Source of the DNA: Corynebacterium pseudopelargi
GTDB lineage: Bacteria; Actinomycetota; Actinomycetes; Mycobacteriales; Mycobacteriaceae
Length of the DNA: 64,000 nucleotides
Assembly: GCF_003814005.1 (NCBI RefSeq)
Contig: NZ_CP033898.1
Coordinates: 682,001 to 746,000, forward strand
Reading direction: 5' to 3'
This document shows, in pieces, positions 497-61,877 of this stretch. Positions within the stretch are counted from its first letter, which is position 1. Every line of letters begins with the position of its first letter. Position numbers and translations under genes: made by a program. The notes beneath the pieces are model-generated. The model saw only the letters and a program-made list of their open reading frames with translations, was not told the DNA's origin and ran no database searches.

Positions 497-508
497 GCGT
501 CGAAAAGC
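497..508 (+). repeat. Copy of the over-represented word GCGTCGAAAAGC
   Basis: This is an exact copy of a 12-base word found repeatedly in the window (see findings). Here it lies in the leader upstream of glyS, outside any credible reading frame. The flanking bases CAACGGTGG resemble those before the copy in the glmS leader at 8558. Confidence 0.7.
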
Positions 509-582
509 TAGCGGGCGGCGGGTTAGACTGTAGCGAAGCAATTTTTCGCAGCAACACGTTATATAAGGAGTCGTGCTCGCCC

Positions 583-1983
583 GTGTCATCCAACGCGAAC
601 GCAAACACCAACTTGGTGGAAACCGTAGTGAACCTCTGCAAGCGCCGTGGTCTGGTGTACCCCTCCGGTGAAATCTACGGCGGCACCCGCTCGGCATGGG
701 ACTACGGCCCGCTTGGCACCGAGCTCAAAGAGAACATCAAAAAGCAGTGGTGGCGCACCTTCGTGCAATCGCGCGCCGATGTTGTAGGCCTGGATTCCTC
801 CATCATCTTGCCGCGTCAGGTCTGGCACGCATCCGGCCACGTGGCCACCTTTACCGACCCGCTGGTGGAATCACTGCACACCCACAAGCGCTACCGCGCC
901 GATCACCTCATTGAAGCCTATGAGGCAAAGCATGGGCACAAGCCGGAAAATGGCCTGGCCGATATTCCCGATCCAGAGACCGGCCAGCCCGGCAACTGGA
1001 CCGAACCGCAAATGTTCTCCGGGTTGATGAAGACCTACCTCGGCCCCGTGGACAACGAACAAGGCCTGCACTACCTGCGCCCCGAAACCGCCCAGGGCAT
1101 CTTCGTGAACTTCAAAAACGTGATGACCACCGCGCGCATGAAGCCCCCATTCGGCATCGCACAGGTAGGTAAGTCCTTCCGCAACGAGATCACCCCAGGC
1201 AACTTCATCTTCCGCACCCGCGAATTTGAGCAGATGGAAATCGAGTACTTCGTTGCTCCCGAAGAAGCCGACGCCAAGTTCGATGAATGGGTAGACGCCT
1301 GCTGGGATTGGTTCATCGACCTGGGTATTAACCCAGACAATATGCGCAAATTCGACGTGCCTGAAGACGAGCGCGCGCACTACTCCAATGGCACCATCGA
1401 CATGGAGTACCGCTTCGGCTTCCAAGGCTCCGAGTGGGGCGAGCTCATGGGTGTGGCCAACCGCACCGACTACGACTTGGGCTGCCACATCAAGGAATCC
1501 GGCGAGGATCTTTCCTACTTTGATCAGCAAAGCGGCGAACGCTACGTGCCGTGGGTGATCGAGCCTTCCTTCGGCCTGACCCGTGCGCTCATGGCATTCC
1601 TAGTGGATGCCTACCACGAGGATGAAGCACCCAACTCCAAAGGTGGGGTGGATAAGCGCGTGGTGCTCAAGCTGGATCCGCGCCTAGCACCAGTCAAGAT
1701 CGCCGTGCTGCCGCTGTCGAAGAAAGACACCCTCACCCCAACTGCAGAGGCTGTGGCCGATACCCTGCGCAAGCACTGGAATATCGACTACGACACCTCC
1801 GGTGCCATTGGTCGCCGCTACCGCCGTCAAGATGAAATCGGCACGCCGTATTGCGTCACCGTGGACTTCGACACCCTCGAAGATCAGGCCGTTACCGTTC
1901 GCGATCGCGACACCATGGAACAAACCCGCGTGAAAATCGACGAGCTTGAGGCCTACTTTGCCCAGCGTCTGATTGGTTGCTAA
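583..1983 (+). CDS. glyS: Glycyl-tRNA synthetase, class II dimeric type
   Basis: This cytoplasmic enzyme charges tRNA-Gly with glycine using ATP. The 466-residue protein has the single-chain (alpha-2, eukaryote/archaeal-like) architecture. The N-terminal 'GTRSAWDYGPLG' segment comes first, then the glycine-enzyme signature 'RPETAQGIFVNFKNV'. Class II motif 2 follows as 'GKSFRNEITPGNFIFRTREFEQMEIEYF', then 'GELMGVANRTDYDL' and motif 3 'VIEPSFGLTRALMAFL'. A C-terminal anticodon-binding domain begins near 'VKIAVLPLSKK'. The longer reading frame opens at 493, but homology starts only around 'NLVETVVNLCKRRGLVYP', so I chose GTG 583, which has AAGGAG at 565-570 (12-base spacing). The length matches other corynebacterial GlyS proteins. 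Confidence 0.97.
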   Translation: MSSNANANTNLVETVVNLCKRRGLVYPSGEIYGGTRSAWDYGPLGTELKENIKKQWWRTFVQSRADVVGLDSSIILPRQVWHASGHVATFTDPLVESLHTHKRYRADHLIEAYEAKHGHKPENGLADIPDPETGQPGNWTEPQMFSGLMKTYLGPVDNEQGLHYLRPETAQGIFVNFKNVMTTARMKPPFGIAQVGKSFRNEITPGNFIFRTREFEQMEIEYFVAPEEADAKFDEWVDACWDWFIDLGINPDNMRKFDVPEDERAHYSNGTIDMEYRFGFQGSEWGELMGVANRTDYDLGCHIKESGEDLSYFDQQSGERYVPWVIEPSFGLTRALMAFLVDAYHEDEAPNSKGGVDKRVVLKLDPRLAPVKIAVLPLSKKDTLTPTAEAVADTLRKHWNIDYDTSGAIGRRYRRQDEIGTPYCVTVDFDTLEDQAVTVRDRDTMEQTRVKIDELEAYFAQRLIGC

Positions 1984-1986
1984 ACC

Positions 1987-59664: not shown

Positions 59665-60200
59665 TGGCGACCCCGGACTATGTATTGAAACTGCGCGAGA
59701 AGATCGGCAACGACGAGCTGTTTATGCCCGGCGTCACCGCCGTGGTGATCCGTGATGTTCCTGAAGGGGCACCGATCACTGCGGTGCCTGAGGTGCTGTT
59801 GGTGAAGCGGGCCGATAACGAGCAGTGGACCCCGATCACCGGCATCGTCGATCCCGGTGAAGAACCTCATCTTGCTGCGGTGCGTGAGGTGAAGGAAGAA
59901 ACCGGCCTCGACGTCCAGGTGGAAGCCTTGTTGGGCGTCGGTGCCGCCGGTCCAGTCACTTACCCCAACGGTGACCAAGCCCGCTACATGGACACCGCCA
60001 TGCGCTGCTCGCTGGCGGGCGATGATACCCCGCGCGTGGCGGATGATGAAAATCTTGAAGTGGGCTGGTTCTCCATCATGCAGATGCCGCCAATGAGTCC
60101 ACGCTTCCGTCTAGTCATCGGTGATGCGGTGGCGCAGCTTCGCCGCCCCGAGGGCTTCAAGCCTCGCATGGGTTTTCAAAAGCGCGATCGCCAGCGTTAG
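59664..60200 (+). CDS. NUDIX hydrolase
   Basis: The 178-residue pyrophosphatase has the Nudix box 'GIVDPGEEPHLAAVREVKEETGLDV' (G-x5-E-x7-REVxEExG). It hydrolyses nucleoside-diphosphate-linked substrates. The flanking 'VLLVKRADNEQWTPITG' is the usual strand before the box. It is translationally coupled to the 45-residue gene. A TTCCTGAAGGGG word lies at 59758. Confidence 0.95.
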   Translation: MATPDYVLKLREKIGNDELFMPGVTAVVIRDVPEGAPITAVPEVLLVKRADNEQWTPITGIVDPGEEPHLAAVREVKEETGLDVQVEALLGVGAAGPVTYPNGDQARYMDTAMRCSLAGDDTPRVADDENLEVGWFSIMQMPPMSPRFRLVIGDAVAQLRRPEGFKPRMGFQKRDRQR

Positions 60201-61777
60201 GGCAAGAACCGCAGTTTCTTACCTAGCAGCAGGGCATAGGACATCACTTGGCCATAGAGCTTTGGTGGCATGCCTTTAGGGCCTCGGATGGATAGCCCGC
60301 GCTGTTCGGCGACGTTGCGTGCCTCGGTGTATTTCAGCAGGCCTTCCTCGCCGTGGCGTCGGCTCATTCCCGATTGCTTCATGCCACCTAGGGGTGAAGC
60401 GATTGAGGCCCACGTCGCGGCGTAACCGTCGTTGATCCCAACCCCGCCGGCGTTGATTTGCCCGGCAATCTGCCAGCCCGTCTCGGGGGCTGCGAAAATA
60501 GATGCGTTGAGGCCGTATTCGGTGTCGTTGGCAAGCGCGATCGCCTCTTGAAGAGTCTCCACTTTTTCCACGTACACCACAGGGCCGAAGACTTCTTCGG
60601 TGCGAAGTTTGGCGTCGCGGGGGACGTCGATAAGCACAGTCGGCTCAAAGAAGAAGGGGCCGAGGTCCGGGCGAGCACGGCCGCCAGCGAGCACGGTGGC
60701 CCCCTTGGCTACGGCGTCGTCAACGAAGCTTTGGACGCTGTCGAGTTGCTGTTGGTTGATGAGCGAGCCCATGTCTACATTCCAGTCGAATCCTGCACCA
60801 AGGCGCATCTGCTGCACGGCCTTGGTGAAGCGGCTCAGAAAGTCCTCGTACACCGGCGCCTCGACGTAAATCCGCTCGATGGAGACGCACAGTTGGCCAG
60901 AGTTAGAAAAACAGGCGTTTGGCACCTCGCGCACGGCTTTGTCTAGATCGGCGTCGGCGGCGATGATCATGGGGTTCTTACCGCCGAGTTCAGCAGAATA
61001 ACCGATGAGGCGTTCGCCAGCGGTCTTTCCTAAGATTCGTCCGGTGGCGGTGGAACCGGTGAACATTAAGTAATCGCTGCGCTGAGCGATGGCGGAGCCG
61101 ACGGTTTTGCCAGCCCCAGTAACCACCTGGAAAAGTTCGCGCGGCAGGCCGGCCTGGTAGAGCAGATCAACCACGGCTAGCAGCGTAAAAGGAGTGTTCC
61201 AATCTGGTTTGGCCACCACCGCATTGCCTGCGAGGAGCGCGGGGATGGCATCGGAAATGCCTAAGGCGAGCGGGTAATTCCACGGGCTGATTTGGCCCAC
61301 CACACCCTTGGGAGCATGCTGCACTCGGTTCTTTGTCAGCAGAGGCAGCGCACCAGGGTTCGCGTTTTCCGCCAGCAGGCGGGGTGCCTTGTTGGCGTAA
61401 TAACGTGCGTTGCCTGCGACATCGAGCACTTCGTCGAGGGCGGATAGTCGGTTCTTGCCGGTTTCGAGCTGCACGATGTCCATGAGGAATTCGCGCTCAC
61501 GCAGTACGCGATCGTGGAAATCCTTGAAGATCTTTGCTCGCTGTTTCACCGGGGTGTGCGCCCACAGGCGTTGCGCCTCGCGCGCTTTGAAGAAAGCTGC
61601 TTCCACGACCTGCTCATCACCTGCAAGCGCATGCCCGATGACCTCGCCACTGAATGCTGAGTGCACCGGATATTCCTCTTGTTCCTGGTGATCTGCAATG
61701 GCGGTGTTGGCGCACAGTCGCAATAAGTTTTGGCGCAAGTGTTTGGGGAGAGGCCCTAGGGTGAGTCGTCGGCTCAT
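60197..61777 (-). CDS. Aldehyde dehydrogenase, succinate-semialdehyde type
   Basis: The 526-residue NAD(P)-dependent enzyme has 'APKGVVGQISPWNYPLALGISDAIPALLAGNAVVAKPDW', 'YLMFTGSTATGRILGKTAGERLIGYSAELGGKNPMIIAADAD' (catalytic Glu in ELGGKN), 'NACFSNSGQLCVSIERIYVEAPVYEDFL' (catalytic Cys in GQLC) and 'TEEVFGPVVYV'. The closest mycobacterial match by pattern is GabD2 (succinic semialdehyde dehydrogenase). GAAAG lies 8 bases before ATG 61777; an in-frame ATG at 61792 is possible. It overlaps the convergent NUDIX gene by 4 bases. Confidence 0.93.
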   Translation of the reverse strand: MSRRLTLGPLPKHLRQNLLRLCANTAIADHQEQEEYPVHSAFSGEVIGHALAGDEQVVEAAFFKAREAQRLWAHTPVKQRAKIFKDFHDRVLREREFLMDIVQLETGKNRLSALDEVLDVAGNARYYANKAPRLLAENANPGALPLLTKNRVQHAPKGVVGQISPWNYPLALGISDAIPALLAGNAVVAKPDWNTPFTLLAVVDLLYQAGLPRELFQVVTGAGKTVGSAIAQRSDYLMFTGSTATGRILGKTAGERLIGYSAELGGKNPMIIAADADLDKAVREVPNACFSNSGQLCVSIERIYVEAPVYEDFLSRFTKAVQQMRLGAGFDWNVDMGSLINQQQLDSVQSFVDDAVAKGATVLAGGRARPDLGPFFFEPTVLIDVPRDAKLRTEEVFGPVVYVEKVETLQEAIALANDTEYGLNASIFAAPETGWQIAGQINAGGVGINDGYAATWASIASPLGGMKQSGMSRRHGEEGLLKYTEARNVAEQRGLSIRGPKGMPPKLYGQVMSYALLLGKKLRFLP

Positions 61778-61865
61778 GGTGCAAACTTTCATGTTCGTGG
61801 GGTGTGGTGGAAGTTGCGCCACGTTGTGGAGTGGCGTTCGCACCATGCTAACCCGGTGTTTGCTT

Positions 61866-61877
61866 GCTTTTCGACGC
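61866..61877 (-). repeat. Copy of the over-represented word, reverse orientation (GCTTTTCGACGC)
   Basis: An exact copy in the 126-base gap between the aldehyde dehydrogenase and MFS genes, outside any reading frame. Confidence 0.7.

Follow-up and report, generated by a model that had tools for sequence, protein, structure and literature searches.

Ten exact copies of the 11-base word CGTCGAAAAGC, four on the forward and six on the reverse strand, are present in the 64-kb stretch of the Corynebacterium pseudopelargi chromosome considered here (NZ_CP033898.1, positions 682,001 to 746,000; hereafter the window). The word is enriched, constrained and divided into dialects within the genus, with no comparable enrichment in the other genera sampled. 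The evidence gives about even support to the view that it is the core of a polar, bipartite recognition signal maintained across much of Corynebacterium, most likely a DNA-uptake signal. Under such a scheme a receptor at the cell surface, for which a minor pilin of the Tad/Flp pilus or ComEA is the most plausible candidate, would prefer DNA with the local spelling and hand the tagged DNA to ComEC, and repeated uptake and recombination of such DNA would keep and spread the tag.

Enrichment and anatomy of the word

The C. pseudopelargi genome (2.348 Mb) holds 277 exact copies of CGTCGAAAAGC, 138 forward and 139 reverse, against 21 of the reversed word. Apart from pattern counts of this kind, results for this genome come from an 807 kb sample, about a third of the whole, made up of the window and 38 further stretches; stretches L001 and L002 were left out of the counts and L040 out of most of those that followed the spelling count. 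The original prediction proposed counting the word and its neighbours against a Markov model, and this reveals a strong excess, with 94 exact copies in the sample where an order-4 model predicts 1.39. The lists of over-represented 9-, 10-, 11- and 12-mers, from which words seen fewer than 15 times were omitted, are all topped by the word, its sub-words or its extensions.

There are 61 copies in called genes, 32 outside and one at an edge, while only about 19% of bases lie outside genes. The genes were called with a home-made caller (671 genes, 81% of bases coding), which misses some genes. It might be argued that the word is a by-product of codon use, of a conserved peptide (such as L-F/V/A-D) or of mutational context, given that 31 of the 61 coding copies share antisense frame 2 and that local peptides could influence the two central bases. 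The coding frame does leave its mark on some variants, as for CGTCGGCAAGC, where 28 of 29 copies are in this same phase and none is outside called genes. However, synonymous shuffles (100 confined to single genes and 100 with the neighbouring bases matched) leave 1.3–1.4 antisense and 0.9–1.3 sense copies, where 37 and 24 are observed. Markov models of order 3 and 4 likewise predict about one copy of the exact word, all six phases relative to genes are occupied, about a third of the copies are outside called genes, and the other genera that were sampled have little or no motif. On the strength of the shuffles, the phases and the non-genic copies, explanations by codon use, by peptide motifs or by Markov composition were rejected, and an origin of this kind is very improbable. 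A short motif of 9–12 nt enriched beyond composition and codon use, present in and between genes with an excess outside them (on crude gene calls), is also what is seen in the DNA uptake sequences (DUS) of the Neisseriaceae and the uptake signal sequences (USS) of the Pasteurellaceae.

The full signal is bipartite and polar, with G-rich blocks followed by C(G/A)TCG-NN-AAGC, in which the NN and G/A positions differ between species. The blocks lie at about -14 to -11 and -5 to -1. Among 179 sites of C. pseudopelargi there is an excess of G at positions -1 to -5 and a further one at -11 and -14, which places the blocks about one helical turn apart. A similar upstream profile is present in two genomes of a second dialect, G053 (24 sites) and G006 (22 sites, here at -17 too). 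Part of a three-base rhythm in the profile may be due to codon phase. The core is often followed by T (61 of 93 copies). Within its 11 nt, position 7 also takes C, T or G freely (59, 27 and 15 copies), there is mild tolerance at positions 6, 8 and 9 (single changes in up to 4–6 copies, against 0.2–1.0), and single changes at the remaining positions are found in no more than 3 copies. The other clearly enriched spellings, CGTCGACAAGC (59 copies), CGTCGGCAAGC (29), CGTCGATAAGC (27), CGTCGTCAAGC (19) and CGTCGAGAAGC (15), alter the two central bases only. The core is not palindromic and is therefore not an iterated word like the highly iterated palindrome HIP1.

In the window itself the ten exact copies, as originally predicted, are far above expectation, with a mean of 0.09 after dinucleotide-preserving shuffling and none of 100 shuffles reaching ten. 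Matches with at most one mismatch number 26, whereas shuffled sequences have 1.83 on average and never more than 5. A recount agrees on six exact copies of the 12-mer GCGTCGAAAAGC and on its A/T-flanked variant at 8278, 34005 and 41931, while the copy said to start at 28611 is in fact at 28601–28611, 28611 being its last base. The interval between 8.57 and 28.6 kb, previously singled out as free of exact copies and as including a sugar island, does indeed lack them, but at the rate of the whole genome any one 20 kb interval would be empty with a probability of 0.094, and neither the gap nor its link to the island is significant. Variant spellings are present within it at 18587, 22217 and 24878. 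The exact copies and variants in the window are as follows.

498..508, forward strand: exact core CGTCGAAAAGC, outside called genes, with a G-rich 5' flank
2853..2863, reverse strand: exact core, within the called gene 2512–2943 (forward)
8278..8288, reverse strand: exact core, within the called gene 7975–8427 (reverse); inverted pair with 8559
8559..8569, forward strand: exact core, outside called genes; inverted pair with 8278
22217..22227, reverse strand: variant CGTCGATAAGC, a spelling enriched in this genome
24878..24888, reverse strand: variant CGTCGACAAGC, the second commonest spelling in this genome
28464–28474: one-base variant CGTCGAAAAGT
28601..28611, reverse strand: exact core, within the called gene 28212–30941 (forward)
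30446..30456, reverse strand: variant CGTCGAGAAGC
34005..34015, reverse strand: exact core, outside called genes; inverted pair with 34170
34170..34180, forward strand: variant CGTCGACAAGC; inverted pair with 34005
36037..36047, forward strand: exact core, within the HNH-like called gene 35418–36632 (forward); inverted pair with 36500
36500..36510, reverse strand: variant CGTCGACAAGC; inverted pair with 36037
39720..39730, forward strand: variant CGTCGATAAGC; inverted pair with 39841
39841..39851, reverse strand: variant CGTCGACAAGC; inverted pair with 39720
41931..41941, reverse strand: exact core, within the called gene 41131–42120 (forward)
44167..44177, forward strand: variant CGTCGATAAGC
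46894..46904, forward strand: exact core, within the called gene 46400–47119 (forward)
51968..51978, forward strand: variant CGTCGACAAGC
59144..59154, reverse strand: variant CGTCGACAAGC
60625..60635, forward strand: variant CGTCGATAAGC
61866..61876, reverse strand: exact core, outside called genes
63728..63738, reverse strand: variant CGTCGACAAGC

The region 12001–20000, within what was previously called the sugar island, has a G+C content of 0.52–0.53, below that of the rest of the window. Two HNH-like genes, at 35409–36632 of the window and at L012:6116–7231, fall just under the Pfam cut-off, and the former carries two motif copies inverted relative to each other. A separate palindromic repeat, CTCCTAACTTT-N-AAAGTTAGGAG, is clustered in stretch L012 (C1:540001–560000), where there are 15 half-sites and 6 palindromes in 20 kb amid ordinary genes by Pfam (peptidase M1, trigger factor, ClpP, ClpX and a valyl-type tRNA synthetase). 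The window and the other 37 stretches contain two half-sites of this repeat, one each in L013 and L024, and the sister species loci L215 and L216 contain 3 and 5.

Dialects in the genus and conservation between sister species

Across 121 Corynebacterium genomes the exact word is present in 0 to 676 copies per genome. When counted as GCRTCGNNAAGC against its reversed control, it is at least 3-fold enriched in 95 genomes, 2–3-fold in 4 and less than 2-fold in 22, although these genomes are related and the counts are therefore not independent. Comparison with related species, which had been suggested as a check, thus finds the word enriched in much of the genus. The G that precedes the core in GCRTCGNNAAGC can hide a motif-rich genome, as in G086, which is below 2-fold by this measure (68 against 46) yet has 81 exact 11-mers against 6.

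A second spelling, GGGGGCATCGGCAAGC, emerged from overlapping top 10- and 11-mers in G053 (60 kb) and G006 (100 kb). Copies of GGCATCGGCAAGC number 393 in G053, 203 in G006, 204 in G104, 73 in G093, 37 in G110 and 25 in G073, with 0–10 in the remaining 115 genomes, and these six genomes hold 0–14 copies of CGTCGAAAAGC. Genome G048 prefers CGTCGGAAAGC (60 kb, small counts). The more divergent GGGCGTCAATAAG of G054, assembled from overlapping words (stretches L085–L087, 60 kb, small counts), and hints of GGGCGTCGG(A/T) in G066 (L071–L073) suggest further dialects. Genome G094, which is mostly N and in short contigs, was excluded from the dialect counts. There was no dialect word in 40–60 kb each of G010, G014, G015, G030, G039, G041, G062, G082, G084, G106 and G119, but the whole genome of G084 carries the broad form (103 against 15 for the control), so samples of this size can miss the motif. 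Species dialects around a conserved core are, again, a property of DUS and USS.

The pattern CRTCGRMAAGC occurs 88 times, against 3 for its control, in 35 named Corynebacterium loci (725 kb). In 45 loci from other genera, 950 kb in all, the numbers are 13 and 8. Most of the 95 genomes from 30 other genera of the family have the exact word at control level; the highest counts there are 30, 28 and 25 against 7, 5 and 3, in genomes of 6.3–6.6 Mb. Four spellings have no copies in 50 kb of two Corynebacterium phages, a small sample that is weak evidence.

The close relative G007 has 86% DNA identity to C. pseudopelargi over 227 kb aligned, after removal of alignments with less than 70% identity or shorter than 300 bp, as well as of hits that largely overlapped. 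Sites of the form CGTCGA(A/C)AAGC are identical in G007 in 42 of 45 cases, and in 42 of 45 in the reverse comparison, against a background of 30% of sampled 11-mers. Each of the three lost sites has a single changed base when compared in one direction; in the other direction, the three have 3, 5 and 7 changed bases. Conservation at synonymous sites, another check put forward with the original prediction, is also evident, in that 156 of 159 third codon positions within the motif are kept where the amino acid is the same in both species, while the rate for these amino acids elsewhere would predict 113.7.

The original prediction allowed for either a recognition word or the scars of a short mobile element. 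That the word is dispersed as a recognition word would be is supported here. The copies could instead be scars or termini of such an element, or a transposition target, and close copies are mostly inverted, in the manner of terminal repeats. However, none of the 45 aligned sites is scored as an indel in either direction, the changes being substitutions, and exact copies are found in all six phases. The spacing of the pairs varies, and they fall inside different called genes as well as between them; the variants form a graded motif with dialects. The absence of indel sites and the varied pair contexts disfavour mobile-element scars, which can be considered very improbable.

Orientation of the copies

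On the scale of the chromosome there is no bias in orientation. The first half of the genome holds 75 of the 138 forward copies, and the replichore halves, with a GC-skew turn near 1.15 Mb, hold 44 forward and 43 reverse and 32 forward and 34 reverse copies. The copies are not spaced more regularly than a Poisson process would give (the number per 20 kb has a variance of 3.17 and a mean of 3.68). The earlier statement that copies are without orientation bias, unlike the strand-biased FtsK and Chi words, is therefore borne out globally; locally it is not, since copies within 1 kb of each other are mostly in opposite orientation.

In C. pseudopelargi, 25 of 26 neighbouring pairs less than 1 kb apart are inverted, at distances of 30–972 bp. 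For CGTCGA(A/C/T)AAGC, opposite orientation is seen in 17 of 18 pairs below 500 bp and in 9 of 10 at 500–1000 bp; below 500 bp it is seen in 11 of 13 pairs in five other genomes, 5 of 7 in the named loci and 7 of 10 in second-dialect stretches. Simulation for C. pseudopelargi, the five genomes and the named loci together gives about 39 same-orientation pairs within 1 kb, where there are 9, and about 38 opposite pairs, where there are 48. The broad pattern gives 483 sites in other species. Among these there are 61 same-orientation pairs within 1 kb, where 118 are expected, and 137 opposite pairs, where 117 are expected; at 1–2 kb the same-orientation pairs number 110 against 112 and the opposite pairs 142 against 112. 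Gaps below 2 kb among the first 100 forward copies are likewise rare, with 1 against 11.0 expected in C. pseudopelargi and 5 against 15.0 in G026. The subset with a following T (117 sites) has no clear orientation pattern. That copies in the same orientation avoid each other within about 1 kb, and those in opposite orientation do not, suggests that each copy is probably read in one direction.

Such a rule might also be expected of a polar chromosomal site for a DNA-bridging, looping or repair protein that reads one direction and uses opposite neighbours, up to about 2 kb apart, as pairs. The local orientation rule, the rarity of short gaps between forward copies and the strong conservation of sites and third positions in G007 all fit this proposal. 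On the other hand, switching of dialects between species fits an uptake tag at least equally, the spacing over the genome is not regular, the orientation rule is not significant in G053 (9 against 13.0, P 0.13), and candidate proteins were sought only among the families named in this analysis. An intracellular site of this type appears unlikely, though it deserves to be taken seriously, and with no link to replication direction it would not be Chi.

Known Chi sites are 5–8 nt long, and the core here is 11 nt with flanks in addition. The motif does share with Chi a polar word with a G-rich side. If it worked as a Chi-like site, stopping or redirecting a helicase-nuclease of the RecBCD/AdnAB type in break repair, candidate enzymes would be those with PDDEXK_1 nuclease domains, which are present in all 121 genomes; among the matches listed, many are in frames of around 1000 aa, the size expected of AdnAB-type subunits. 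The domain is, however, also present in genomes without the motif, and the absence of replichore bias differs from the behaviour of Chi in 350 kb of E. coli K-12, where 61 of 74 copies follow replication. In the same E. coli sequence, same-orientation pairs within 1 kb number 9 against 10.3, so that there is no clear avoidance, and opposite pairs 0 against 4.7 expected, all of these being small counts. Neither Chi nor the FtsK-orienting polar sequences (KOPS), the orientation of which follows replication, can be identified with the motif on these grounds, and a Chi-like function is improbable.

Competence genes and known uptake systems

The genes for ComEA and ComEC are adjacent in C. pseudopelargi, followed by an open frame that by eye resembles holA. 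A Tad-type locus is also present. It encodes an ATPase of the TadA family, a TadE-like protein of the Rv3654c family and a protein with a weak match to TadE, and three intervening frames have no NCBIfam match. All 121 Corynebacterium genomes have a ComEC domain; 118 have a match to the Tad ATPase family (112 of them over the cut-off) and 120 to the TadE-like minor pilin (115 over the cut-off). Competence machinery is therefore present in genomes with the motif (ComEA being noted in C. pseudopelargi), as it is for DUS and USS, and the candidate receptors are TadE (weak family match, isoelectric point 10.4), the TadE-like Rv3654c family and ComEA. Being near-universal, ComEC, the Tad ATPase, the TadE-like pilin and PDDEXK_1 do not separate motif-rich from motif-poor genomes, and were rejected as discriminators. 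Open frames that contain the ComEC domain reach 680 aa or more in 17 of the 22 motif-poor genomes, in 6 of the 95 motif-rich ones and in none of the 4 intermediate ones; the ComEC of C. pseudopelargi is 467 aa. This split in frame length may reflect shared ancestry or a loss of a C-terminal domain linked with the signal.

In sequence the motif resembles DUS and USS as an enriched, non-palindromic word, in and between genes, with no chromosome-wide orientation bias and with dialects (PMC3630211, PMC1939737, PMC12616744). The DUS of the Neisseriaceae have distinct species dialects (PMC3630211), and in both cases a short tag in many copies is accompanied by type IV filament genes and ComEC in the same genomes. 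The Corynebacterium motif differs in sequence, in phylum, in its bipartite core with two free central bases, in its G-rich 5' blocks, in its non-hairpin inverted pairs and in the local orientation rule. The USS of the Pasteurellaceae combine a core with less conserved blocks at helical-turn spacing (PMC12616744), an arrangement that is similar here. The cores are unrelated, however, and the Corynebacterium blocks are G-rich and 5' of the core, where those of USS are AT-rich and 3'. Corynebacterium cells are, in addition, Gram-positive, with Tad genes. For H. influenzae, 65% of uptake sequences are reported in reading frames, with an excess outside, and for N. gonorrhoeae 35% (PMC1939737); the 61 of 94 copies in called genes here resemble the former. 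In the actinobacterium Micrococcus luteus, too, there are comEA/comEC and tad genes, and these are used for DNA uptake (PMC6370729, PMC6667448). The available text of the M. luteus papers mentions no uptake sequence (PMC6370729, PMC6667448). No description of the motif in Corynebacterium was found in the open-licence literature, mostly at title level, nor in the accessible portion of PMC5217627, and those printed occurrences of CGTCGAAAAGC that were seen are primers for C. glutamicum genes.

Several points weigh against an uptake signal. The competence genes are also present in genomes that lack the motif and so do not discriminate. Avoidance between same-orientation copies at short range is not predicted by a simple double-stranded tag, and the orientation rule is weak or non-significant in second-dialect genomes, G053 among them. 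Inverted repeats that serve as terminators are common, though not essential, among known uptake sequences, whereas the inverted pairs here, from 30 to 972 bp apart, are not at hairpin distance. We know of no demonstrated natural transformation in Corynebacterium, and none was found at title level in the open-licence literature. The orientation of the uptake sequence was without effect in tests with N. meningitidis and H. influenzae (PMC3388099, PMC1939737).

As uptake, binding and the receptor are inferred, the motif is likened to DUS and USS and not filed as a member of either. Import from a polar site that favours one strand or side would make nearby copies in the same direction redundant and those in the opposite direction not, and the polarity may thus reflect the strand or side imported. 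One-directional use would leave each stretch of about 1–2 kb with at most one copy per orientation. The fuller proposal, of a genus-wide uptake tag with dialects, evolved separately from those of the two known proteobacterial groups and, unlike them, read in one direction by Tad pilus, ComEA and ComEC under this limit, is put forward tentatively, its probability being somewhat short of even.

If the motif is an uptake signal, it would be a third case, in an actinobacterial genus, and genome self-tagging would be shown to arise repeatedly. Cryptic natural competence in Corynebacterium would be implied, and the receptor could be sought through its co-variation with the dialects. Should the function be something other than uptake, the word, conserved and polar, with its dialects and its orientation rule at short range, is still a genome-wide signal in a well-studied genus.

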